A stretch of DNA of 20,273 nucleotides from a virus: positions 1 to 20,273 of IMG/VR virus record IMGVR_UViG_3300011013_000123. One strand, written 5' to 3'. The notes beneath the pieces were generated by a model. It was not told the origin of the DNA. It did no database searches and worked only from the letters and a program-made list of their open reading frames with translations. Made by a program: the position numbers and the translations under genes. Below, one piece after another: positions 149 to 20,273 of the stretch; within the stretch, counting starts at the first letter, position 1; each line of letters begins with the position of its first letter.

Positions 149-176
149 TTGACAAATCTAAATGTTGTTATATAGT
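149..176 (+). promoter_or_regulatory. Tandem promoter 2
   Basis: TTGACA (149-154), a 16-bp spacer and TATAGT (171-176). It begins 36 bp after the -35 box of the first tandem promoter, and both are followed by a CTGGG(A/T)C string leading into the next TTGAC box. This suggests duplication of a promoter unit. Confidence 0.55.
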
Positions 177-635: not shown

Positions 636-664
636 ATTATATCATATTCCAAACAATTTGTCAA
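636..664 (-). promoter_or_regulatory. Leftward sigma70-type promoter
   Basis: On the minus strand: TTGACA (664-659), a 17-bp spacer and TATAAT (641-636), a full consensus match with expected start near 629. It points away from the late genes, into DNA with no convincing minus-strand gene inside the window. It may drive a gene beyond the left edge, a short peptide or an untranslated RNA. Its -35 box forms a 9-bp inverted repeat (658-666 with 685-693) with that of the rightward promoter next to it. Confidence 0.6.
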
Positions 665-686: not shown

Positions 687-715
687 TTGACAATTTATAA
701 ATATTATGATATAAT
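687..715 (+). promoter_or_regulatory. Late promoter of the packaging genes
   Basis: TTGACA (687-692), exactly 17 bp, TATAAT (710-715), with an extended -10 TGA at 707-709. This is a perfect consensus. The base expected to be +1 is 722, the A of the ATG of the first gene, so the message should be leaderless. The direct repeat AATTTATAAA (670-679 and 692-701) and the inverted -35 boxes around it could let one protein control both directions. Confidence 0.85.
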
Positions 716-721
716 ATAAGA

Positions 722-1012
722 ATGATTAAAAAAGATAATAAAAGTTTTGAAGTTTACTTCAAGGGTGAGGTTAAGCGTTTGCAATTAACAATACAAGATG
801 TTCCTATTTACAAGTCTCCAAAAGACAAGGAAACATTAGTCGGAAATAAGCCTACAATCTTTGGCACATTACAATTATTTAAGAAAGGCGACAAAAAGAA
901 AGTAAAGAATGTAAACTTTACTTTACCATTTAGTAATAACAAAGATTTCCAAAGCCAGATATTGGCTATGATAGAAGAGGCTCTTAGCTTATATCACAAA
1001 AAGAATGGATAA
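722..1012 (+). CDS. Hypothetical small protein at head of packaging operon
   Basis: A 96-residue, lysine-rich protein that I do not recognise. It has no signal peptide or membrane segment. The middle (about residues 25-70) alternates hydrophobic and polar residues in a way that suggests beta strands; the C-terminus (about 75-93) looks helical. The start is fixed by the perfect promoter whose expected transcription start is this ATG; there is no ribosome-binding site because there is almost no leader. Its last 8 nt overlap the start of the small terminase gene, so the two are translationally linked. First place in the packaging operon fits a small virion or packaging accessory protein, but no function can be read from the sequence. 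Confidence 0.75.
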   Translation: MIKKDNKSFEVYFKGEVKRLQLTIQDVPIYKSPKDKETLVGNKPTIFGTLQLFKKGDKKKVKNVNFTLPFSNNKDFQSQILAMIEEALSLYHKKNG

Positions 1013-1682
1013 AAAAGATATTAAAATTGATAAAGACAAACTAAGACCTGAAGATTTAGAAAGTAGAAAAATCATTACATTAGATGATGGTTCTCTTGAA
1101 GAGGTTTATATCTCAAGGGCTGGTAATATTGTTACAGACCCTAAAAATAGGAACTCATTAGTCGATATAAATGAGAGAAAAACAAAAAGAGAGAAGTGTT
1201 GGGAAGAATATGTTAAAACTTGGAGGGCAGGAGAGCCTTCTGCTAGAAAGGCTGCTATTATAGCTGGATATGCCCCAAATACAGCTATTAATATAACAAA
1301 AATGAAGTGGTTTAAGGATAAGAAGAAAAAGCTACGTAGGAGTGCAATGATGACAAATGCAGAGAAAAACCTAGCTAGAGTCCTAAGAATGAACTTTTCA
1401 GAGATGAAACTACAAGAAGATGGCTCAGAAAAGGAAGTTGTAGACAAAGACATCTTAAAAGCCGTTATAGACGTTTCTAAGACAGTTGTAACCACATTAG
1501 GTAAAGATGAAGGATATTCCACTAAAACAGAGGTTAAAGGTGACATGAGTGGAGAAATAAAGATTAACTCTGTATCTTATGCAGATGTTCCTACAGAGGT
1601 TGAAAACAAAATAGTAGACAATTCTGTAAAGGTCATAGAGGGTGAAATATTAAAAGAAATGAAAAATAAAGATAATGGCTAA
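1005..1682 (+). CDS. terS: Terminase small subunit
   Basis: A 225-aa protein read as the DNA-recognition subunit of the packaging motor: in the family it binds the packaging start on concatemeric DNA and hands it to the large terminase. Residues about 64-105 have the layout of the N-terminal helix-turn-helix domain of phage small terminases (a WEEYVKTW helix, then GEPSARKAAIIAGYAPNT, then a helix ending in a WFK motif). Residues 105-165 look helical and basic then acidic, suiting an oligomerisation region. The C-terminal part (170-225) is polar and probably contacts the large subunit. An extra N-terminal stretch of about 60 residues precedes the helix-turn-helix. It overlaps both neighbours by 8 nt, and sits directly before terL, which strongly supports the call. 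There is no Shine-Dalgarno sequence. Confidence 0.85.
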   Translation: MDKKDIKIDKDKLRPEDLESRKIITLDDGSLEEVYISRAGNIVTDPKNRNSLVDINERKTKREKCWEEYVKTWRAGEPSARKAAIIAGYAPNTAINITKMKWFKDKKKKLRRSAMMTNAEKNLARVLRMNFSEMKLQEDGSEKEVVDKDILKAVIDVSKTVVTTLGKDEGYSTKTEVKGDMSGEIKINSVSYADVPTEVENKIVDNSVKVIEGEILKEMKNKDNG

Positions 1683-2964
1683 AGAAGTTACACTACCATA
1701 TAAGTTCAAACCAAGAAAATATCAGATTCCTATCTTAAAAGCTTGGGATTCTGGTATTAAAAGGCTATTTTGGGTTGCTCACAGGCGTTCTGGTAAAGAT
1801 AAGACTATATTTGCTAATTTACCAAAGAAAATGATGGAAAGAGTTGGAACTTATTACTATTTTCTTCCTACTTATTCACAGGCTAAGAAGGTTATTTGGA
1901 CAGGAGCTGATAAATCAGGATTCAAATTCCTAAATCACTTCCCAAAAGAGATTGTAAAGAGTATAAATCAGTCAGATATGATAATAGAACTAATAAATGG
2001 TTCTATTTTACAGATGGTTGGTGCGGATAATATTGATAGAATTGTTGGAACAAACCCTATTGGTGTTGTTTTTTCAGAGTATTCCCTTATGAAGCCAGAA
2101 GTCTGGAGCTTTATTACTCCTATTTTAAGAGAAAACGAAGGTTGGGCTGTTTTTATAATGACTCCCCGTGGAACTAACCACGCTTGGGACTTAATGCAAG
2201 ATATAAAGGATAAAAAGAACTGGTTTTGTGAAGTATTAACAGTTGACGAAACTAAAGCTCTTACAAAGGAAGCCCTACAAGAGGCTAGAGATGAAATGCC
2301 ACACGATTTGTTTCAACAGGAGTATTATTGTAAATTCTTGGATAATGGTTTGGGCTTCTTTAAGAGGGTAGATGAAAATACTTATAAACAAGAAGAATAT
2401 CAGCCCAAAGATTTGGCAATGTATCAGCTTGGAGTGGACCTAGCTAAATATAATGACTTTACTGTAATCTCTCCATTTAATCTTAATGATTTTCATTTAT
2501 TAAAACAGGACTCTTTTAACCAGATGGATTACAACTTACAGAAGGCTAGAATAGAGAATGCTTATTTGAAGCATAATAAAGGAATGATTGTAATTGACTC
2601 TACTGGTGTAGGAGAACCAGTCTTTGATGACTTAAATTCTAGGGGTATGAATATCACACCATTCAGATTTAATAAGACAAGTAGAACAGACTTACTTCGA
2701 AACTTACAGATATTATTAGAGCAGGATAAGATAAAAATACCCGATGATGAGGTTCTAATAAATGAGTTGAAGTCAATGACTTATGAATTAAGCAATTCAG
2801 GAAGCACATTAATAAAAGTGCCAGATGGTAAACACGACGATAGAATTATGTCTTTAGCACTAGCTGTTTGGAAAATTCCACAAAATCCAATTAGGGTAAA
2901 TAGCTATACAAATCAAGGGGTTTATGGTGGAGTTGACCCAATGTATCCTGAAATAGGATTTTAA
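1675..2964 (+). CDS. terL: Terminase large subunit (packaging ATPase/nuclease)
   Basis: The motor that pumps DNA into the prohead and cuts the concatemer; 429 aa, within the usual size range. The N-terminal ATPase shows a Walker A motif (AHRRSGKDKT, residues 35-44), a Walker B-like strand ending in Ser-Glu (VVFSEY, 131-136) and the coupling motif MTPRGTNHAW (162-171). The C-terminal RNase H-like nuclease has the expected acidic residues: Asp255 in GVDLAKYNDFTV, Asp308 in VIDSTGVGEP, and Asp388-Asp389 in GKHDDRIMSLALA. All catalytic positions appear intact, so the enzyme should be active. The start overlaps terS by 8 nt. The stop is followed after 13 bp by the portal promoter, so the packaging operon may simply read through; no terminator is visible. 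Confidence 0.96.
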   Translation: MAKEVTLPYKFKPRKYQIPILKAWDSGIKRLFWVAHRRSGKDKTIFANLPKKMMERVGTYYYFLPTYSQAKKVIWTGADKSGFKFLNHFPKEIVKSINQSDMIIELINGSILQMVGADNIDRIVGTNPIGVVFSEYSLMKPEVWSFITPILRENEGWAVFIMTPRGTNHAWDLMQDIKDKKNWFCEVLTVDETKALTKEALQEARDEMPHDLFQQEYYCKFLDNGLGFFKRVDENTYKQEEYQPKDLAMYQLGVDLAKYNDFTVISPFNLNDFHLLKQDSFNQMDYNLQKARIENAYLKHNKGMIVIDSTGVGEPVFDDLNSRGMNITPFRFNKTSRTDLLRNLQILLEQDKIKIPDDEVLINELKSMTYELSNSGSTLIKVPDGKHDDRIMSLALAVWKIPQNPIRVNSYTNQGVYGGVDPMYPEIGF

Positions 2965-2977
2965 TTTAGAAAAAGAC

Positions 2978-3006
2978 TTGACAAATAATTAAAAGTATGT
3001 TATACT
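2978..3006 (+). promoter_or_regulatory. Late promoter of the head module
   Basis: TTGACA (2978-2983), 17 bp, TATACT (3001-3006). Its -35 box and the next bases (TTGACAAATAATTAAAA) match the promoter at 9241 at all but one position. Expected start is near 3013, giving a short A/T-rich leader of about 22 nt with no Shine-Dalgarno sequence. A second TATAAT at 3014-3019 has no matching -35 box. Confidence 0.8.
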
Positions 3007-3034: not shown

Positions 3035-4726
3035 ATGCAAGATAAAACACAAATAATTGCAGACCATCTTAGAGACAAACAGGAGTCTGTTGATTTCAAA
3101 AGACGTAGGTTTGAACAATGGAATGAGAACTATTCTCTTTTTAGAGATAAGGTGAATACAAACAGACTAACACAAAGACAGCCTGTTAATGTTCCTATTG
3201 TAAGAGAGACAATTTCAAGTTGGATTTCTAAAATAGATGAACCACCAAAATTAAAATATGAAACTAGGGGTAATTCCCACAAAGATAAAACAGGAGAGAT
3301 TTTACTTAATGAGCTTTATAGATATTACTACCAATTACTTAAACTCGATATTCTTGATAATATGGAGAAAAAGGTTGTTGGACTTCAAGGAAGAAGCTTC
3401 AAGAAAATTGGAATGTATCGGAACAAGATTTTCATTGACTTGATTGACCCTTATGATATTGAAGTAGACCCTAGGGTTAATCCACTAGATTTATCTTCCG
3501 CTGACTATATAATCCACACACACATTTATCGTCCATTAAAAAAGATTCTAGCTGACCCTAAATATACTAAGGAGGGTAAGAATGAATTAAAACAATATTT
3601 AGATACAGAAAATGGAATTATAAGAGCAAAGGGTGATACTGAAGCATTTAATGATAAAAAAGAAAGATTAGAAAACCTAGGAGTTGATAATTATGATGAA
3701 TATAGTGGTGCTGGAGTAAAAATAGAACTTAATGAATCATACAAACTTGTTTGGAATAAAGAAAAGAATAAGTTCGAACGAAGACTAAGAGTTATTGCTG
3801 CAGATTCTATTGTTCTTTCAGATTTGGAATTAAAAGAAGCAACTGGTTCTAGTAGGCTTCCAATAGTTACTTGGGCTTCAGACCCAGACTCTGTTGATTT
3901 CTGGTCAGATGGTATTGCTGATAATGTAAGAACATTTAATAAGATTACCAATATGTATATTTCTCAAGACTTAGAGAATAGAACTTATGCAAACTTTGGT
4001 ATGTATTTCTTTAATACCCTTAATGGAACTTTCCAACCTAGAGCATTTGACCCTAAGCCTTTCGGAATGTATGGAGTTCCAGGAAATCCAGATGAAATAA
4101 TTAAACAGGTAAAGATTGAAAAACTAAATGATACTGCTAACCAGATTAGTTGGCTAAAGAATCTAATTCAGTCTTCAGTTGCCCAAACTCCAACAGAAAG
4201 AGGTGTTAAACAACCAGGAGAACAAACACTAGGACAAGTTCAGATTCAGTTATCTCAGTCTAAAGGAATAAACCAAGTAGTATCTAAAAACTATAGAGCA
4301 GCTTGGAAAGAACTAGGAATGATTTTTTATGACTTATTAAAGAATAATTCGAATGGAACTATAAAGATTTCTAAAAAGGGCGGAGATGGAAACTACTATT
4401 CAAAAGACGTTTCAAGTTCTGATTTTATTTCAAAAGAAGGATATGAAGTTGTTGTTGAAACACAAGCAGAAGCAAGTGTAGCTGATGACTTCGACTTGAA
4501 GAAGATTCAGTATATTAAGAACTCATTTGCAAATAACCCAGTAGCAATAGAAATAGCTAAAAAGAAAGAGTTGGAATTACTTGATTTCTCTACAGCAGAG
4601 ATAGAAGCTATTATGTCAGCCGAGAATCCACAACAACCATTGAATACTCCACAAGAAGCACCAAGTAAAGTAAATAATCCACAAGATAGTATTATTAGCA
4701 CTAATGCAAATCAACAAAATATATGA
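3035..4726 (+). CDS. Portal protein
   Basis: A 563-aa protein read as the dodecameric ring at the capsid vertex through which DNA passes. Support: its place between terL and the scaffold/capsid genes, its size, and portal-type features. These include an N-terminal helical segment with aromatic residues (RRRFEQWNENYSLFRDK, 23-39), the VPIVRETISSWISKI helix (53-67), the GLQGRSFKKIGMY strand-turn (116-128) leading into DPYDIEVDPRVNP (138-150), and a long helical region (about 370-445) with the Gln-rich QTLGQVQIQLSQSKGI, suiting the stem and wing. The Gln/Asn/Pro-rich tail (after about 530) looks disordered. It is shorter than the P22 portal (about 725 aa). It is the only gene here ending in TGA, and overlaps the next start by 4 nt (ATGA). 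Confidence 0.88.
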   Translation: MQDKTQIIADHLRDKQESVDFKRRRFEQWNENYSLFRDKVNTNRLTQRQPVNVPIVRETISSWISKIDEPPKLKYETRGNSHKDKTGEILLNELYRYYYQLLKLDILDNMEKKVVGLQGRSFKKIGMYRNKIFIDLIDPYDIEVDPRVNPLDLSSADYIIHTHIYRPLKKILADPKYTKEGKNELKQYLDTENGIIRAKGDTEAFNDKKERLENLGVDNYDEYSGAGVKIELNESYKLVWNKEKNKFERRLRVIAADSIVLSDLELKEATGSSRLPIVTWASDPDSVDFWSDGIADNVRTFNKITNMYISQDLENRTYANFGMYFFNTLNGTFQPRAFDPKPFGMYGVPGNPDEIIKQVKIEKLNDTANQISWLKNLIQSSVAQTPTERGVKQPGEQTLGQVQIQLSQSKGINQVVSKNYRAAWKELGMIFYDLLKNNSNGTIKISKKGGDGNYYSKDVSSSDFISKEGYEVVVETQAEASVADDFDLKKIQYIKNSFANNPVAIEIAKKKELELLDFSTAEIEAIMSAENPQQPLNTPQEAPSKVNNPQDSIISTNANQQNI

Positions 4727-5923: not shown

Positions 5924-7030
5924 ATGTCTCAGATTATAACTCCAGTAATGGGTGCTTTTACACCAATAAAGTATTCATTAAAACTTGTAGATTTACTCTA
6001 CAATGATACACTTTATCCTAGTATCACCAATACTACCTACGAAGGTGCTATTAAAGATTCAGGAGACCGTGTTCGTGTTCGTACAGCAGGTAAGATTTCT
6101 CTTTCAAAGTATACCAAAGGTATGCAACTTGTTAAGCAGGAACTTACACCTACTTTCGAAGACCTTATTATCGACCAGCAATATTACTTCTCTTTCGGAG
6201 TTGATGATGTTGATAAGATACAAAACGATATAGATGCTATTAATGAGTATGCTATGAATACCAAGAAAGATATGTCTACTTTGATAGATACTGATATTCT
6301 TGATTACATGCGTAAAAACGTTAATAGTGCTAATATGGTTGGTACAGCTTATGACACTGGTACAGTTGCAGTTGCTGCAACTACAGGTGTTGTTACTGGT
6401 TCAGGAACAACATTTACAGACGAAATGGTTGGTGGTGTGTTCACTTGTGATAGCCTTTCAAGTTCTTACTTGGTTACAGCATTCACATCTAGTACATCTA
6501 TAACTATTAAAGACTTAGATGGTGTTGCCTATACAGGTGGTGCTGTTTCAGCTGGTGATAGTTTCTCTATCGCAGGTGCTACAGCTCTTTCACTTACAAA
6601 GACTAACGTATATGCAAACATTGTTGCATTGCGTACAGCTCTAGGTAAGTCTCTTTCTCCTAAGGAAGGACGCTTCTTAGTTGTAAACTCTCAATTTGAA
6701 GGTTTACTATTACAGGCTCCTGAATTCATTCCAGCTGTTCAGTCAGCTTACAATGATGTAGTTGAAAAAGGACTTATCGGTTCTATAGCAGGATTTAAGG
6801 TTTATACTTCAGAACTTGTTTCTGGAGATAACTCAACTGGTTATTGGTTTGTAGCAGGAAGCAAGAAATTCTGTGCTTTCGCTCTACAGATTATGAAAAC
6901 TTCAGTTATTCCTTCTGCTGCTTCAGAAGACTCATTCGTTTCAACCGCTAAAGGTTTGCTTGTTTGGGGACGAAAAGTATTCGAAGGAAATCGTGCTCAC
7001 GGTGCTGTTCTTAGGGCTACTCTTGCTTAG
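5924..7030 (+). CDS. Major capsid protein with an insertion domain
   Basis: A 368-aa protein read as the coat subunit of the head (HK97 fold, P22-like type). Residues 1-140 and 225-368 form the core: an N-terminal arm, DRVRVRTAGKISLSKY, a long spine-like helix region (96-130), and a C-terminal half containing KEGRFLVVNSQFEG and IGSIAGFKVYTSELV, typical of coat proteins. Between about 144 and 217 sits a Gly/Ser/Thr-rich, beta-rich segment (VVTGSGTTFTDEMVGGVF, YLVTAFTSSTSITIKDL) that reads as an inserted beta-sandwich. Codon use differs from the neighbours: most arginines are CGT, whereas nearby genes use AGA/AGG, as expected for a very highly expressed gene. It follows the scaffold gene and is followed by a stable hairpin. 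Confidence 0.88.
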   Translation: MSQIITPVMGAFTPIKYSLKLVDLLYNDTLYPSITNTTYEGAIKDSGDRVRVRTAGKISLSKYTKGMQLVKQELTPTFEDLIIDQQYYFSFGVDDVDKIQNDIDAINEYAMNTKKDMSTLIDTDILDYMRKNVNSANMVGTAYDTGTVAVAATTGVVTGSGTTFTDEMVGGVFTCDSLSSSYLVTAFTSSTSITIKDLDGVAYTGGAVSAGDSFSIAGATALSLTKTNVYANIVALRTALGKSLSPKEGRFLVVNSQFEGLLLQAPEFIPAVQSAYNDVVEKGLIGSIAGFKVYTSELVSGDNSTGYWFVAGSKKFCAFALQIMKTSVIPSAASEDSFVSTAKGLLVWGRKVFEGNRAHGAVLRATLA

Positions 7031-9240: not shown

Positions 9241-9269
9241 TTGACAAATTATTAAAAATATAGTATAAT
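9241..9269 (+). promoter_or_regulatory. Late promoter of the fibre module
   Basis: TTGACA (9241-9246), 17 bp, TATAAT (9264-9269): perfect consensus, starting two bases after the stop of the propeller gene. The expected start is near 9276, leaving about 3 nt before the ATG at 9279, so the message is practically leaderless. Confidence 0.85.
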
Positions 9270-9278
9270 ACAAACACA

Positions 9279-10136
9279 ATGAAAATATTAGAAAACTTTT
9301 ACAAGACAACAGTATCTAAAGACTGGGCAACAGGAACTGGAAATAGATATGTAACTACATTACCGACTCCAACTTCTGGTTGGTTGGTTGTTTCACCAAA
9401 TAACTCTTCCTTAAGAGAGATTGTTGAATATACCGCTATTGGAACAGATGGTGGTGGTAATTATATCACAATAAGCAATAGGGGTGTAGGTGGAACAACA
9501 GAACAGACACACGCAACGAAAGAACCAATAAGAATGAATATTACAGCAGAATACTGGGATGACATTTATACAGACCCAACTTTTACAGGTACGGTTACTG
9601 TCCCAACACCCACAAATGACACAGATGCTTCTACTAAAAAATATATAGACGACTCGATAACAGCTACTGTTGGTTCATCTGTTGAATTAACAGGAGACCA
9701 AACAGTTTCTGGTGTAAAAACATTTAATTCGTCTCCTATTATCCCAGCACCAACAACAGATTTACAACCTTCTACTAAAAAATATACAGATGACGGTCTT
9801 GTTAATAAAGTATCTAAGACAGGGACAGAAATTATTGATGGAGATAAAACATTCTTACAACCAGTTACTGTTCCGTCTCCTGCACTTGGAAGCAATGCGG
9901 CGACCAAAGAATTCGTATTGTCCCAGGTATATGGTCCTGTTTATCCAGGTTGGAATAATTTAACCATAAGTTATGACGATGAAGGTAGAATATCTAAAAT
10001 TAACGATACAGACCTTCTTAAAACTTTCACATTAACATATAATAGTTCAGATGATGTTATTTCAATCACCGATGGAACAACAGTTTGGACATTAGAATAT
10101 AATGCTGAAGGAGATATTATTAAAATTACAAATTAA
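9279..10136 (+). CDS. Tail fibre/structural protein with TKKY repeats
   Basis: A 285-aa, Thr/Ser-rich protein likely on the virion surface. The N-terminal domain (1-95; ending GVGGTTEQTHATKEPIRM and ITAEYWDD) has the look of an attachment domain shared by many phage structural proteins. It is followed by three diverged repeats of a fibre motif: VPTPTNDTDASTKKYIDD (108-125), PAPTTDLQPSTKKYTDD (156-172) and VPSPALGSNAATKEFV (198-213), alternating with VSGVKTF (143-149) and IIDGDKTF (185-192). Such repeats are usual in trimeric fibre shafts. The C-terminus (226-284) is built of short beta phrases resembling YD-type repeats (YDDEGRISKI, YNAEGDIIKI). The start is set by the near-leaderless promoter. 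Which receptor or partner it binds cannot be read. Confidence 0.7.
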   Translation: MKILENFYKTTVSKDWATGTGNRYVTTLPTPTSGWLVVSPNNSSLREIVEYTAIGTDGGGNYITISNRGVGGTTEQTHATKEPIRMNITAEYWDDIYTDPTFTGTVTVPTPTNDTDASTKKYIDDSITATVGSSVELTGDQTVSGVKTFNSSPIIPAPTTDLQPSTKKYTDDGLVNKVSKTGTEIIDGDKTFLQPVTVPSPALGSNAATKEFVLSQVYGPVYPGWNNLTISYDDEGRISKINDTDLLKTFTLTYNSSDDVISITDGTTVWTLEYNAEGDIIKITN

Positions 10137-11870: not shown

Positions 11871-14093
11871 ATGTCAATATTCGATACAATAAATAATGCA
11901 ACAGACTTACAAGGAATAAGTATTCCCAAGTTAAAAACTACACCAAAGAAACCAAAACAATCTGATATAGATAGTTTTAATTCATTTCTTAGTGGCTTAG
12001 GTTCTATCTTTTCTGTTCCTGCAAACTATAAACCAACACCAGTAAAACCAATAAATGCTTTTGGAAACACTAGTGCTAGTAGTCCAATTGGTTATATAAA
12101 TAACCAATTAGGTTTTCCAGCAACACCAACATCAATAACTGGTAATGGTGTAGGTCCACTAAATACAAACCCAACCTCTATAACTGGCTATGGAGTCGGT
12201 CCTTTAGCCAATCCAACAAGTATAACAGGTTATGGGGTTGGACCCCAAGCTAATCCAACTTCAATTACAGGCAATGGCGTAGGACCCCTACCTAGTCCAA
12301 GTTCAAATAAAACTAATAACCCACAAGATAGACCATTATCAGAGGAAGAAAAAAAATTAGTTTATCAAGCTGGATTACAAGGTGGATTATCTTCACAAGA
12401 AGCATCTTCTGTTTCTGGTTATATACCTACAAAAACAAACACAACTAGTAAAACACAAACAGGTGGAAGAGGTAGACCAGCCCCTAAACCATTTATAATT
12501 CAAGAAGGACCATATAAAGGTTTAACATTAGCTCAAGAAGGAGCAAAGAAAAAAGAACAAAGTAAACAAGACTCTCCTTTAACAAGTTACTCATTTTCTC
12601 CCGAATCTATTGGTAACACTAAGAAGGTTATGGACAACTTTCAGTTATTCTTAGATTCAAACCAAAACAATCCACTAACATCAGAAGGAGATAAACAGCA
12701 AGAAAAAAAGATAAAAGTAGACTTAGCAGCTAAGGACATAGCTAAGGGGTTTAATAATCCACAAGACTTCTATGTTGCGTCGCAAAACAATGCAGAACTT
12801 CAAAATATCTTAAAACCATTTATAGATAATGGTGGAAGTCTTTCTCAAATAGCCTCAAATATAACAAGTAATGTAACCAACACAAATAAACAAGATGTTG
12901 GGAGTTATCTTAGCAGTTTGAATACAAATAATAATAACTTTGATGTAAGTGACCCATTCCACCTTAAAGCACTAAATACTCTTTTCCCAGAAAATGAATT
13001 AGCACAAAAGGAAGTAATGAGACAAGCTAATATTGCTTCTGAATTACACGATTTATATTTTGGAACAGAAGATAAAATTGGTATTTTAGATGAACAAAAG
13101 AAAACAGCTGAAGAAAAGATTAAGATACTTAATCAGAAAGAATTAAATGACAAGGCAACTGCAAGAGATAAAGCACAATACGCTATTGATAAAAATAACT
13201 CTGATGCAGATGCCGCTAGGGCAGAAATAGAGTTAAACAGACAACACGCTAAAAACTATATGACAGGAATGTTAGCCAAACTTGGTGCATTAAAAACAAC
13301 AGGCACAGCACCATTGGCTCTATCTACACTAGAACAAAAGTATCAACAACAGAAACAAAGACTTGACACTAAATTAAAGTTTGCTAATAGAGAAACAGAG
13401 CTTGGTTTAACAGAAAAGATAAATGATATAACAACCAATACAGATAGTGATATTGAAACAATAAATGAAGATTTAAGTCTTTCTTCTCAAAAGGCTGCTG
13501 AAAAAGTATTTGCAGCTCAACAGAAAGCAGAAACAAAGATATATGACCTAACATCCAAGGCTGCTGTTGAAATGAGAAAGCAAACTGAAATATATCGTAA
13601 GGAAAGTAAATCTAATAGTGATAAATATAATGCAAACTTCTGGAAATTGGCTTCTAAGGGTGTTGATGTAAAAAAGATACCTAGTTTAATTGGGGCAGAT
13701 GGAAGTATTGATACCTCAAAATTAACTAATAGTATTTTTGCTAAAAAAGTTACTCCTTCTAATAGTTATTTCTCAGCTTCTGATTTAAGAAAACTAAAAA
13801 GAGCTGGAATAAACCCTAACACTCAACTAGATAAAGCTATATCATTTATAGACAGTAGCTCACAAACAAGTATCAAACCAGACTATACGGGAGAAACATT
13901 AAAATTAAATAATAGATTATTAAAAGGTTTTCTTAAATTAGGACCTGCAGATAAAATAAAATATACTGAAGCTGACCTAATTAAAGTGCAAAACTTATTA
14001 TTACACGGTTATTCATTAAAACAGATAGCTAAGCAGTCAGGAATGTCTACTAGTGTATTTAATTACTTAAACAATCATCTCAAAACAAATTAA
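11871..14093 (+). CDS. Large internal virion (ejection) protein candidate
   Basis: A 740-aa protein read as internal/ejection or tape-measure-like. Domains in order: Pro/Ser/Asn-rich disordered N-terminus (1-85); four tandem repeats of PTSITG[NY]GVGP (86-142); more disordered sequence (143-290); a long Lys/Glu/Gln-rich helical and coiled-coil region (about 380-600), including a less charged stretch MLAKLGALKTTGTAPLALST (near 465-484); and a C-terminal domain (about 697-740) that looks like a helix-turn-helix (LLLHGYSLKQIAKQSGMSTS). In short-tailed phages, genes in this position usually encode proteins stored in the head and injected ahead of the DNA. That role is inferred from size, composition and order. 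It is followed after 2 bp by the next gene, so they are surely co-translated. Confidence 0.65.
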   Translation: MSIFDTINNATDLQGISIPKLKTTPKKPKQSDIDSFNSFLSGLGSIFSVPANYKPTPVKPINAFGNTSASSPIGYINNQLGFPATPTSITGNGVGPLNTNPTSITGYGVGPLANPTSITGYGVGPQANPTSITGNGVGPLPSPSSNKTNNPQDRPLSEEEKKLVYQAGLQGGLSSQEASSVSGYIPTKTNTTSKTQTGGRGRPAPKPFIIQEGPYKGLTLAQEGAKKKEQSKQDSPLTSYSFSPESIGNTKKVMDNFQLFLDSNQNNPLTSEGDKQQEKKIKVDLAAKDIAKGFNNPQDFYVASQNNAELQNILKPFIDNGGSLSQIASNITSNVTNTNKQDVGSYLSSLNTNNNNFDVSDPFHLKALNTLFPENELAQKEVMRQANIASELHDLYFGTEDKIGILDEQKKTAEEKIKILNQKELNDKATARDKAQYAIDKNNSDADAARAEIELNRQHAKNYMTGMLAKLGALKTTGTAPLALSTLEQKYQQQKQRLDTKLKFANRETELGLTEKINDITTNTDSDIETINEDLSLSSQKAAEKVFAAQQKAETKIYDLTSKAAVEMRKQTEIYRKESKSNSDKYNANFWKLASKGVDVKKIPSLIGADGSIDTSKLTNSIFAKKVTPSNSYFSASDLRKLKRAGINPNTQLDKAISFIDSSSQTSIKPDYTGETLKLNNRLLKGFLKLGPADKIKYTEADLIKVQNLLLHGYSLKQIAKQSGMSTSVFNYLNNHLKTN
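12126..12296 (+). repeat. Four tandem PTSITG peptide repeats
   Basis: Four units of 45, 42, 42 and 42 nt (12126, 12171, 12213, 12255) encode PTSITGNGVGPL, PTSITGYGVGPL, PTSITGYGVGPQ and PTSITGNGVGPL plus linkers. The peptide is nearly constant but third codon positions differ: the Gly after N/Y uses GGT, GGA, GGG and GGC in turn, Val uses GTA, GTC, GTT and GTA, and Ser uses TCA, TCT, AGT and TCA. Confidence 0.9.
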
Positions 14094-16025: not shown

Positions 16026-17927
16026 ATGAGTACTTGTATACCAAAAGATGTAATAAAAGAGGTAGAAGATAGTGGTGTCTTTGAAATAAAAGATAGTCTA
16101 AAAAGAGAGGAAGCCCTTTCTAAGTTTTTTAGTAAATCTGAAGCAAGAAAATTAAATATAAGGTTTGAAAAAACTAAATTACTTAAAGATTCAGAAGCTG
16201 GTGTTAAGAAATTTATAGAAAGTCAAACTGAAGATGGAAAAGCTAAATTAGCAGAACTAAAAGCAAAAATGGAGAAAGAGTTTGAAAGAAAAGCTAAATT
16301 ACTTAAAGAACTACAAGACGCTGGTGAAGTAAAAGACAAGGATATTTTAGATATAGAAAAAGTTGCCAATGATGTATTTAATAAAAAGCATGGATTAGAT
16401 TTAACAGAAGAACAAACAAATACAGTAGTATCATTAACAAATGAGGTTAGTAAAGCATCTAAATTACCGAAAGAAAAAAATGGTGATTATAATATAAAAT
16501 ATGGACAAGCTATTGGAGTTTTGGATGATTATACTGCTTCTCTCAAAAACCCTAGATTGAATATGAGTTTATGGAAAGAATTAGGTTATGATTATAATTT
16601 AACAAAAAAGGAACTTGATTCAATAGGTAGTATACCTAAAAAAATAGGCTATATAATGAGTAAAGTATATAATACATCTACTTCTCCTTCTTTTAAGAAC
16701 ATGAAAGCGACTTTAGACTTATCAGTTCTTGGTATACAAGGAATGGCTGCTACTACTAGAAACCCATTAGCTTCAATGAGGGCTATAAAAAAATCTTTCA
16801 AATTATTATTTTCAAAAGACCCACAAGCATCATGGAATGCAATTAGAGCTAAAATGTTCTCTGGTAAGAATTTTAATACTTGGTTGAGGTCAGGGTTAAG
16901 GTTAATACAAAGAGAAGAACAGGTTCAAAGCACCACTGCGGAAAAATTAGGTGTATTTGGTAAATTCATAAAAAGAGCAGACCTATTCTTTAGTAGTTAT
17001 TTACAGGTAATAAGAGAAGGAGAAGCTAATAGGGTATTAAGAAATACGGAAAAGAAACTTGGTAGGTCACTTGATATTACTGATTCTAATTTACCTGAAT
17101 TAATAGACAAAAAAGTAAAGATAAAAATAGAAAAATTAAAAAGGAAAGGTAAGTTTCCAACAGATGAAAAACTAAAAATAGCAGAAGAGGAAAAAATAAC
17201 AGAAAGAGTAACAAACAGTATCACATCTGATTCAAAGTTATTAAAAGAAATAGCCAACCACGCTAATAAAATTAGTGGAACAACCAATCTTGGTCCAGCC
17301 GAAAGGTATGCAAGTGTCTTGAACAAAGGTATATTTGCAGCTAGGTTCTCCGTCTCTGATGCTAAAATGTATACAGATGTTTTATTTAATTTTAATTTAA
17401 GTAAAGCAAGTAGAATAAGGGCAATAAATACATTAGCACTAAACTGGGGGACTTTATTTGGTAGTTATTTGGCATTGAGTGCTATTTTCCCAGAGAAAAC
17501 AGACCTTAGACCTAATTCTGCAAACTTTATGAGAGTAAGGGGAGATAATAATGTTTGGAGTTTTCCTAAACCTAAGGGTGCTTGGATAATACAAGTTATG
17601 TCTAAAATTATTTCAGGTAGTGAACTTAGTTCAAGAGGGAAAAGGACTGTTTATGGAAAGGGTTATAACTCTAAAACAAGAGGGGATGTTGTATTAAGAT
17701 TATTGCGTTCTAAGGCTTCTCCACAGGTTTCGGTAGCAACTGACCTATTAACAGGAAGTGACTTCTTAGGAAGGAAAAATACACCAGCAAGAGTAATAAC
17801 AAATCTTACAGCTCCTATAGCTGCTTCTAATATCATTGAAAGAATTTTCTCTAATGCTGATATGAAAGACCAGTTCATGTTAGGATTTATGGATGCTGCT
17901 GGAATTAATGGTTGGCAAAGACACTAA
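16026..17927 (+). CDS. Internal virion protein with large-polyvalent-protein-type C-terminus
   Basis: A 633-aa protein. Residues 45-105 form a charged coiled coil; 170-340 are helical. The C-terminal half (about 408-585) runs NHANKISGTTNLGPAERY, NKGIFAARFSVSDAKMY, a hydrophobic helix NTLALNWGTLFGSYLALSAI (468-487), SANFMRVRGDNNVWSFPKP, then TRGDVVLRLLRSKASPQVSV and DLLTGSDFLGRK. This order (N-x-SG motif, F-A-x-RF, a Gly-rich ‘WSFPKPKG’ strand, RSK-SP, LLTG-DF-GR) matches a domain I know from large polyvalent phage proteins that are often injected with DNA. The hydrophobic helix could insert into the host membrane during ejection. It ends three bases before the promoter of the last fibre. No lysozyme or transglycosylase motif was found. 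Confidence 0.65.
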   Translation: MSTCIPKDVIKEVEDSGVFEIKDSLKREEALSKFFSKSEARKLNIRFEKTKLLKDSEAGVKKFIESQTEDGKAKLAELKAKMEKEFERKAKLLKELQDAGEVKDKDILDIEKVANDVFNKKHGLDLTEEQTNTVVSLTNEVSKASKLPKEKNGDYNIKYGQAIGVLDDYTASLKNPRLNMSLWKELGYDYNLTKKELDSIGSIPKKIGYIMSKVYNTSTSPSFKNMKATLDLSVLGIQGMAATTRNPLASMRAIKKSFKLLFSKDPQASWNAIRAKMFSGKNFNTWLRSGLRLIQREEQVQSTTAEKLGVFGKFIKRADLFFSSYLQVIREGEANRVLRNTEKKLGRSLDITDSNLPELIDKKVKIKIEKLKRKGKFPTDEKLKIAEEEKITERVTNSITSDSKLLKEIANHANKISGTTNLGPAERYASVLNKGIFAARFSVSDAKMYTDVLFNFNLSKASRIRAINTLALNWGTLFGSYLALSAIFPEKTDLRPNSANFMRVRGDNNVWSFPKPKGAWIIQVMSKIISGSELSSRGKRTVYGKGYNSKTRGDVVLRLLRSKASPQVSVATDLLTGSDFLGRKNTPARVITNLTAPIAASNIIERIFSNADMKDQFMLGFMDAAGINGWQRH

Positions 17928-17930
17928 CAC

Positions 17931-17959
17931 TTGACTTATTACTAACTTTATGATATAAT
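17931..17959 (+). promoter_or_regulatory. Late promoter of the last fibre gene
   Basis: TTGACT (17931-17936), 17 bp, TATAAT (17954-17959) with an extended -10 TGA (17951-17953). It shares the string ATGATATAATA with the promoter at 687-715. The expected start is about 17966, one base before the ATG at 17967, giving a leaderless message. Confidence 0.85.
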
Positions 17960-17966
17960 ACATATA

Positions 17967-20273
17967 ATGAAAGAAGAAAAAATTAACTCAAACTCAATAG
18001 AGAGACAAAAATACCAACTCCACAAACAAGGTTATGAAAAAATAACTAAGGCTATTTCTGAACTAAAGAATGCTAAAAAAATGAAAATAGACAAGGTTGA
18101 GTTTTCGGGTGCAGAAGTTGTAACCATTAAGGGTAATAAAGGAGAGAAAGGAGAAAAGGGTAATACTGGTAATGATGGACATACACCAACCGATAAGGAA
18201 TTATTGTCTTTAATTAGACCATTGATACCAAAACCTATAAAGGGTAAAGATGGACACACACCAACAGACAAAGAGTTATTGAAGTTAATTAAACCTCTTA
18301 TTCCTAAACCTAAAGATGGGCAGAAATTAAACCAAAAAGAACTCACAGACTTAATTAAACCTCTTATTCCTAAAATAAAAGAGTCTATTTCAGATACCCC
18401 AAAAGAATTGGTTAAGAAACTACAAGGAGTTAAAAAACAATGGTTAGACATTGAGGCTATTAAGGGTGATTTTAATACAAAAGTAAGGCAACTTACCCCT
18501 AGAAGTGCTAACTCTCTTAAATCTTTAATAGATGTTGACTATTCTGGGCTAACTCAAGATAAAAATGGTAATTTTATATTAAAAGCTAGTGATGGTGATG
18601 TAAAAGGTCCTTCTTCTTCTACTGATTCTAATTTCGCTTCTTTTGATGGTTTAACAGGTAAGTTGATAAAAGACTCTACTTATAGTCCTGCAAGCTTTGC
18701 AGCGGCTCTCACAGCCAATGAGAACTATGTAACAGACGCAGAGAAGGTTATTATAGATAATACTTCAGGAACTAACACAGGAGACCAAGATTTAACTCCT
18801 TTTGAAAGATTATCTAATAAAGATACTAATGTATCATTAGGAACTTCAGATATTAAATATCCTTCACAGAATGCAGTAAAAGTATATGTAGATAATGTTT
18901 TAGGAGATGCTAATGCATTGGTTTATAAAGGAACTATTGATTGTTCTACTAATCCTGATTATCCAGCAGCTGACGCAGGTCATTTATATATAGTAAGTAT
19001 TGCTGGTAAAATAGGTGGTGCTTCAGGAATAGAAGTAGAAACAGGAGATATGGCTATCTGTAATACTGATAGTACTGCTTCAGGAAATCAAGCAACAGTA
19101 GGAAGTTATTGGAATGTTATACAGAAGAATATAGTTGGAGCTGTTACAGGTCCTGGTTCTTCAGTAGATGGTAATGTAGCCTTATTTGATGGAACTACTG
19201 GTAAAGTTATAAAAGATAGTGGTCTTTCTCTTTCTGGTTATATTCCATACACTGGGGGTACTAATAATGTAGATTTGGGTATTCACAATTTGACAGTAGA
19301 TACAAACAGCTTGTTTGTAGATAGTGTGAATCATAGAGTCGGCATCGGAACAACGAGTCCGTCGGCGAAGTTGCATTTGAAAACTTCTTCTGGAAATACT
19401 ATTCAGACGATAGAGTCTACGGGTTCGGCAGATGCTTTTACTAGATATGTTCGTGGGGGTTCTAATGGATGGGCTGTTGGTAGAGATAATGATGGGGCTT
19501 CATTTAGGATAGCTTATTCTGCGAGTGATACCCCGGCAGTTGGAACTGGAGATTATTTTGTTATTGATAATTCAGGCAAAGTTGGAATTGGGACAACGAG
19601 TCCGAGTAGTATTTTAGATATAGATGGAAAATCTAACTACCCTGTTTTTACTATGCATGCTTCATCTTTATCTTCAAGAACTTTTAAGATAGGTATGGAA
19701 GATTCAGTAACTCCTTATATTGATGCAAGTGGTGTTAATGCAGATTTACATTTGCGAACACAAGGTTCTACTCGTGTTTTTATAGAACATAACGGTAATG
19801 TCGGGATAGGGACGACGAATCCAGGGGCAACACTTGATGTAACAAAGGAAGTAGGAGCAAATGGAATTTGGGCTAATTTTGGTTATGATGCAACAAATCC
19901 AAGTAGAGCTAAGATTTATTCTTCAAATTGGTATGGTGCTATGTCTTTATATGATAGTGCTAATAATGAGGATATAAAACTTAATACGGGAGGAAATAGT
20001 TGGTTAAATGGTGGCAAGGTCGGAATAGGAACGACGAGTCCTGGGGCGAAGTTGGATGTTTATAGTGCAACGGACCCAACAATTCAAATATCAAACGGAG
20101 GAGGGACGTCACCGTCTCCAACACTGAGGTTTTATAGACAAAATGGGGTAAGCGCTAATATTAATTATGAGCCATCTTCCAAGAACCTAAATATCCAAAA
20201 CGATTATTCCACAGTAGATAGTTCAGGGAATATATACTTTAACACTCGTGGAGCTAATAAGAGACTGACTATA
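17967..20273 (+). CDS. Long modular tail fibre (open at right edge)
   Basis: The frame is open for 769 codons and runs off the window, so the C-terminus is unseen. Order of parts: charged helical N-terminus (1-50); a collagen-like Gly-X-Y stretch (KGNKGEKGEKGNTGNDG, 55-71); two and a half tandem units built on GHTPTDKELL-LI-PLIPKP (71-140); a helical link (140-190); fibre modules including DIKYPSQNAVKVYVDN (295-310) and a compact beta module starting LVYKGTIDCSTNPDYPAADA (318-337); a duplicated FDG[LT]TGK[LV]IKDS motif (227-237, 408-418); then four repeats beginning VGIGTT[SN]P (458, 539, 612, 685), 73-81 aa apart. These are typical fibre and adhesin modules, probably host recognition. From about 19330 the codons change to GC-rich ones. 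The start is fixed by the leaderless promoter. Confidence 0.85.
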   Translation, partial: MKEEKINSNSIERQKYQLHKQGYEKITKAISELKNAKKMKIDKVEFSGAEVVTIKGNKGEKGEKGNTGNDGHTPTDKELLSLIRPLIPKPIKGKDGHTPTDKELLKLIKPLIPKPKDGQKLNQKELTDLIKPLIPKIKESISDTPKELVKKLQGVKKQWLDIEAIKGDFNTKVRQLTPRSANSLKSLIDVDYSGLTQDKNGNFILKASDGDVKGPSSSTDSNFASFDGLTGKLIKDSTYSPASFAAALTANENYVTDAEKVIIDNTSGTNTGDQDLTPFERLSNKDTNVSLGTSDIKYPSQNAVKVYVDNVLGDANALVYKGTIDCSTNPDYPAADAGHLYIVSIAGKIGGASGIEVETGDMAICNTDSTASGNQATVGSYWNVIQKNIVGAVTGPGSSVDGNVALFDGTTGKVIKDSGLSLSGYIPYTGGTNNVDLGIHNLTVDTNSLFVDSVNHRVGIGTTSPSAKLHLKTSSGNTIQTIESTGSADAFTRYVRGGSNGWAVGRDNDGASFRIAYSASDTPAVGTGDYFVIDNSGKVGIGTTSPSSILDIDGKSNYPVFTMHASSLSSRTFKIGMEDSVTPYIDASGVNADLHLRTQGSTRVFIEHNGNVGIGTTNPGATLDVTKEVGANGIWANFGYDATNPSRAKIYSSNWYGAMSLYDSANNEDIKLNTGGNSWLNGGKVGIGTTSPGAKLDVYSATDPTIQISNGGGTSPSPTLRFYRQNGVSANINYEPSSKNLNIQNDYSTVDSSGNIYFNTRGANKRLTI
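18129..18386 (+). repeat. Collagen-like triplets and HTPTDKEL tandem units
   Basis: Residues 55-71 have Gly at every third position (56, 59, 62, 65, 68, 71), a collagen-like trimerising segment. They are followed by GHTPTDKELLSLIRPLIPKP (71-90), GHTPTDKELLKLIKPLIPKP (96-115) and the decayed KLNQKELTDLIKPLIPKI (120-137), a unit of about 24-25 aa. Confidence 0.85.
19338..20057 (+). repeat. Four GIGTTSP-type fibre repeats
   Basis: Motifs VGIGTTSPSAKLH (19338-19376), VGIGTTSPSSILD (19581-19619), VGIGTTNPGATLD (19800-19838) and VGIGTTSPGAKLD (20019-20057) are spaced 243, 219 and 219 nt apart. Codons within the motifs (ACG, CCG, TCG, GCG, GTC) are rare elsewhere in this window. Confidence 0.9.

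Follow-up and report, generated by a model that had tools for sequence, protein, structure and literature searches.

The packaging operon of the uncultivated tailed phage represented by IMGVR_UViG_3300011013_000123 opens with an ATG that closely follows a consensus promoter, raising the question of whether its mRNA begins on the start codon itself and, if so, how such an mRNA would be translated. The window, the whole 20,273-base fragment analysed here, is AT-rich, with a GC content of 33% in these phages, and carries packaging, portal, capsid and tail genes together with several strong promoters (Table 1).

Promoter and start codon in the window

The elements of a σ70/σA promoter (TTGACA, a 17-nt spacer, TATAAT and an optional TGn) are matched at 12/12, 12/12 and 11/12 positions ahead of the ATGs at 722, 9279 and 17967, respectively. 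With d values of 7, 10 and 8, the expected transcription start (+1) falls on or within ~3 nt of each start codon, the spacing of leaderless genes. The original prediction, that a promoter with an extended −10 abuts ATG 722 and that the same layout recurs at 9279 and 17967, with predicted leaders of ~3 and ~1 nt, agrees with the promoter positions read directly from the sequence.

Table 1 Promoters and genes of the window; d is counted from the end of the −10 box to the A of the ATG
Feature	Position	Strand	Remarks
σ70-like promoters, non-coding left end	113-141 and 149-176	+	upstream of 722
Perfect divergent promoter TTGACA-17-TGATATAAT	636..664	-	reads leftwards; no long ORFs nearby
Perfect σ70-type promoter TTGACA-17-TATAAT (12/12)	687..715	+	TTGACA 687-692; TATAAT 710-715; extended TG 707-708; d=7 to ATG 722
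First gene of packaging operon, 96-aa protein of unknown function	722..1012	+	predicted leaderless; ahead of terminase genes
Probable small terminase	1005..1682	+	helix-turn-helix; Terminase_2 match below threshold only; start overlaps stop of 722 gene; no SD
Large terminase (TerL)	1675..2964	+	start overlaps previous stop; no SD
Portal promoter TTGACA-17-TATACT, extended −10	2978..3006	+	predicted leader about 22-29 nt, A/U-rich, no SD; not leaderless
Portal-like protein	3035..4726	+	assigned by position after TerL; no Pfam/PHROG family match
Major capsid protein	5924..7030	+	no strong promoter close to its ATG
Perfect promoter TTGACA-17-TATAAT (12/12)	9241..9269	+	no extended TG; d=10 to ATG 9279; ~3-nt predicted leader
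Tail-fibre-like gene	9279..10136	+	very short predicted leader; N-terminus conserved among relatives (d 7-21)
Promoter TTGACT-17-TGATATAAT (11/12)	17931..17959	+	d=8 to ATG 17967; ~1-nt predicted leader
Tail fibre gene, runs off contig end	17967..20273	+	near-leaderless by prediction; relatives at d 7-21

Three perfect 12/12 promoters lie on the two strands of the window, against 0.045 in 1000 dinucleotide shuffles, and units of TTGACn-17-TATAAT with an ATG at d=7–10 also number three, against 0.006 expected from 1000 such shuffles. Weaker promoter matches in the window are not enriched (71 vs 82 in shuffles), so the signal is carried by the near-perfect sites only. At the packaging operon an in-frame TGA (707–709) sits within the extended −10, and the 722 ORF therefore cannot start upstream of the promoter. 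A +1 exactly at 722 is likely from the promoter geometry, but it could fall anywhere from 720 to 722 (an uncertainty of ~2 nt), since the base preceding this ATG is an A, unlike the pyrimidine usual at related sites. The protein encoded at 722 has no Pfam or PHROG match; its structure is predicted with confidence as a β3-α fold (pLDDT 89.7), for which the best PDB match, a COMM domain (E 0.0024, TM ~0.4), falls below significance and was rejected, and no viral structure match reached significance.

Other elements lie close by. The divergent promoter next to the packaging operon has perfect or near-perfect counterparts in relatives L005, L006, L010, L011, L012, L017, L020, L022 and L025. The sequences downstream of it belong to a few conserved types, for example GGATGGTCCTAnnTnGGATAACC, common to the window and L100, and several of them have T-rich tails. 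None of these downstream sequences has an Rfam match, and it is possible that the divergent transcript would be a phage non-coding RNA. The promoter at 113–141 contains an operator-like 18-bp inverted repeat, ATAACACACTTGTGTTAT (121–138), between its −35 and −10 elements, and in the portal promoters of L016, L103 and L109 the −35 lies within an inverted repeat, TTGACACTTGTCAA, possibly an operator.

Conservation of the spacing in related phages

Related viral contigs were gathered by TerL, portal and capsid searches, with 66 contigs or loci entering the first spacing count; the portal-like protein is itself kept in more than 50 viral contigs. Orthologues of the first gene are present in 12 relatives, at 18–64% protein identity to the window's protein. 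In all 13 first genes the ATG lies at d=7–9 behind a promoter that matches TTGACA-17-TGnTATAAT perfectly or nearly so, with varying bases between −10 and ATG. In L009 and L107 mechanical ORF calling would pick an ATG touching the −10; the conserved ATG is at d=7. More distant relatives (e.g. L026, L036, L074 and L081) have the same −10-to-ATG spacing and an extended −10 but lack TTGACA, which would suit a branch that can do without the −35 element. The leaderless or near-leaderless reading of the original prediction is thus strongly supported by the spacing conserved among relatives.

The remaining operons are less strict. Strong promoters stand at d=7–21 before the orthologues of the 9279 and 17967 genes and at d=9–41 before the portal genes. 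As leader lengths thus vary over d 7–41 among tail and portal genes, strict leaderlessness would be confined to the first gene, with other operons apparently tolerating leaders of 0 to ~35 nt. Genes of the relatives outside these families are led in the same way, 14/22 lying at d=7–9. The suggestion that leaderless mRNAs serve abundant virion genes does not hold as a rule: the capsid gene lacks a strong promoter nearby, the portal gene has a leader, and the gene with the strictest spacing codes for a small protein whose function is not known.

The spacing can also be followed across all genes of the relatives, each called mechanically as the longest ORF that opens with ATG and spans 80 aa or more. 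At d=7–10 there are 22 strong −10 boxes against 2.8 expected among 322 genes of the close clade (P 4e-13) and 22 against 2.4 among 313 genes of the distant clade (P 2e-14), where the expected counts derive from d=13–32 of the same upstream regions and the P values are only indicative because the calls are mechanical and some of the genes, counted as independent, are orthologues. The distribution has a sharp lower edge at d=7, with a single box in d=2–6 (at d=5, in the distant clade). Such an edge is expected if +1 lies at about d=7, because nearer ATGs would escape transcription. A pyrimidine occupies position −1 in 16/17 starts at d=7, compared with 63% elsewhere (p=0.008), the window's own site being the exception; as initiators with a purine +1 usually have a pyrimidine at −1, this may be an indirect initiator signature. 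In L010 and L012 a strong promoter-like site with an ATG at d=8 also occurs inside the capsid gene, at about codon 90, by chance or as an internal start, and in L097 an ORF at 12211–12615 (minus strand) consists of YGSGSGYGDG repeats, a low-complexity tract.

Beyond these relatives, IMG/VR was scanned for TTGACA-N14-TGnTATAAT followed by an ATG. Among the matches listed, some from near-duplicate contigs, the ATG opens an ORF of at least 60 aa in 45/76 cases at d=7, 17/39 at d=8 and 5/23 at d=9, compared with 5/41 at d=11–16. On these shares, this promoter-ATG architecture is in use among other uncultivated phages too.

Translation without Shine-Dalgarno signals

Downstream of 143 strong promoters, the start codons at d=5–12 that open ORFs of 60 aa or more comprise 45 ATG, 0 GTG and 0 TTG, AUG being the start codon expected of leaderless genes. 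No Shine-Dalgarno (SD)-like motif stands upstream of any of the window's 15 genes, and SD 4-mers at −20 to −4 precede 7% (close clade) and 5% (distant clade) of relatives' genes, as against 6% after shuffling; the same script finds them at 68% of genes in the control Lactococcus phage TP901-1. Even among 20 distinct leaders of at least 11 nt, which are A/U-rich, none contains an SD-like 4-mer (0/20). These genomes therefore have no SD enrichment before their starts, as SD-independent genomes do.

Sequence and comparison show what the promoters are and how they are spaced, that AUG alone is used and that SD is lacking; from these findings we infer the 5′ ends, the ribosome mechanism and the kind of host. 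Very probably, host σ70/σA promoters put +1 on or near the AUG, and initiation is SD-free, which we regard as the best explanation overall. In this model the host σ70/σA RNA polymerase would transcribe the phage operons from their near-consensus promoters; +1 would fall on, or 0–3 nt before, the AUG of an operon's first gene, yielding an mRNA with a 5′-terminal AUG, onto which ribosomes would load without SD pairing. In other operons, such as that of the portal, ribosomes would instead bind a short A/U-rich, SD-less leader. Starts overlap the preceding stop at genes 1005, 1675, 4723 and 7694, and coupling or reinitiation probably accounts for the translation of intra-operon genes whose starts overlap or directly adjoin the stop before them. 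Among the best 25 families listed for 50 non-structural proteins from three relatives, no phage RNA polymerase, sigma or initiation factor was found, in keeping with reliance on the host enzyme. In three relatives, L100 among them, the pooled proteins include polynucleotide kinase and RNA ligase families, and L100 (41 kb, record G002) carries a cluster of 23 tRNA genes at 16297–18725.

The ATG-proximal promoters could be real but minor, the productive mRNAs being leadered and arriving by read-through, either from the promoters at 113 and 149 or, for 9279 and 17967, from the preceding operon. The promoters at 113 (TTGACA-17-TATAGT) and 149 (TTGACA-16-TATAGT) do face 722, with no plus-strand terminator predicted in between, and the genes at 9279 and 17967 start only 40 and 39 nt past the previous same-strand stop, so that read-through is possible. 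Yet the promoter and its 7–9 nt spacing have persisted in 13 orthologues despite great divergence, as would hardly be expected of an idle site, and a read-through mRNA would be just as SD-less; we consider this reading unlikely. Less probable still is that the annotated starts are wrong and the true starts lie further in, behind ordinary leaders. At 722 a GGTGAGG does stand before an in-frame TTG at codon 20, which would follow its GAGG, but residues ahead of this codon are conserved (the F.G.VKRL region common to the window, L004 and L100), codons 1–20 have an excess of third-position change in the L006/L012 and L010/L012 comparisons, the tail gene N-terminus K.LQNFYK aligns from residues 1–5 in 14 relatives, and the genome-wide absence of SD makes a single SD-led TTG unlikely. 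That the excess at d=7–10 simply reflects the base composition of AT-rich intergenic DNA scarcely deserves credence and was rejected by reversed-pattern, shuffle and control-phage tests: the shuffle-level weaker matches noted above and the slight close-clade enrichment in a lax −10 test (at least 4/6; 58 vs 41.6) would suit it, but strong −10 boxes are ~8-fold commoner at d=7–10 than at d=13–32 of the same upstream regions, the exact pattern has 20 matches in 20 whole viral records against 0 for its reverse, and the AT-rich controls TP901-1 and crAss001 have no strong −10 peak.

Host and comparison with known systems

If host promoters and SD-free initiation are indeed used, the phages constrain their host. 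The absence of SD and promoters that abut genes suggest a bacterium that starts translation without SD, and relatives encode M15 peptidase and transglycosylase families, which requires a host with peptidoglycan. The host should therefore use TTGACA/TATAAT promoters and code 11 with standard stop codons, have peptidoglycan and need SD little. The proposed bearing of these genes on the host translation machinery is borne out to this extent, by the absence of SD signals throughout, and stops short of naming a host: aligning TerL to genome contigs yielded no more than 5 matches, all distant and from different phyla, no named phage has a related portal, capsid matches are all below 60% identity, and a literature search on candidate-phyla bacteria and their phages found nothing direct on translation that is leaderless or SD-free. 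Bacteroidota promoters are of the TAnnTTTG/TTTG type, not TTGACA/TATAAT; the Bacteroidota would fit the low SD need but not the promoter type, and the TTGACA/TATAAT promoters here differ from those of a Bacteroidota-type SD-free phage. Candidate-phyla bacteria as host are a guess. The phages may, though this is less likely than not, mark a lineage (possibly a candidate phylum, e.g. Patescibacteria) that initiates virtually all mRNAs SD-free, with the 5′-terminal AUG as standard and the whole phage genome moulded accordingly.

In bacteria, initiation on leaderless mRNAs is generally seen as secondary to the SD route. Phages that combine intact σ70 promoters, a lack of SD throughout and a first operon gene leaderless in every relative examined would constitute a natural system for SD-free initiation. 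The strict promoter-to-ATG spacing offers a cheap sequence signature with which to find such phages and correct their gene starts, and host prediction is narrowed to bacteria that read TTGACA/TATAAT, use code 11 and are SD-independent.

A −10 (TA-like) signal ~10–12 bp ahead of the start codon is a recognized criterion for predicting leaderless genes in bacteria (PMC3160421), and the same diagnostic, implying coincident transcription and translation starts, applies here. That bacterial set is richest in Actinobacteria and Deinococcus-Thermus and has degenerate TAnnnT boxes, whereas the present phages are AT-rich, use ATG starts only and carry complete TATAAT boxes, in the close clade together with TTGACA. 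Leaderless mRNAs are also known for phage repressors and lysogeny switches, such as lambda cI, with which the present phages would share a σ70 promoter and recognition of a 5′-terminal AUG. The lambda cI type concerns isolated regulatory genes in SD-using phages; here packaging and tail operons of SD-free genomes are affected.

Most middle and late transcripts of the Thermus phage phiYS40 are reported to be leaderless (PMC3594737), and the description of leaderless phage operons as unusual must be qualified accordingly. Like the present phages, phiYS40 is a tailed phage with structural-phase transcripts that lack a leader, and as a positive control its −10-to-ATG excess was recovered by the same pipeline (14 strong −10 boxes at d=7–10 vs 3.8 expected). 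A phiYS40-type programme would have most of its late operon starts leaderless, and infection would shift IF2/IF3 in favour of leaderless mRNA; here the first gene is strictly leaderless by prediction, tail genes are at d 7–21 and the portal is leadered. The leaderless transcripts of phiYS40 are reported in the literature whereas those of the present phages are predicted only, and phiYS40 retains SD at many genes (SD 4-mers 0.39 vs 0.21 shuffled, by the same script), with promoters that match TTGACA/TATAAT less strictly, whereas the present phages are at shuffle level for SD and near-perfect in promoter consensus. It is this pairing of predicted leaderless starts with a complete absence of SD and near-perfect σ70 promoters that makes the present phages unusual.
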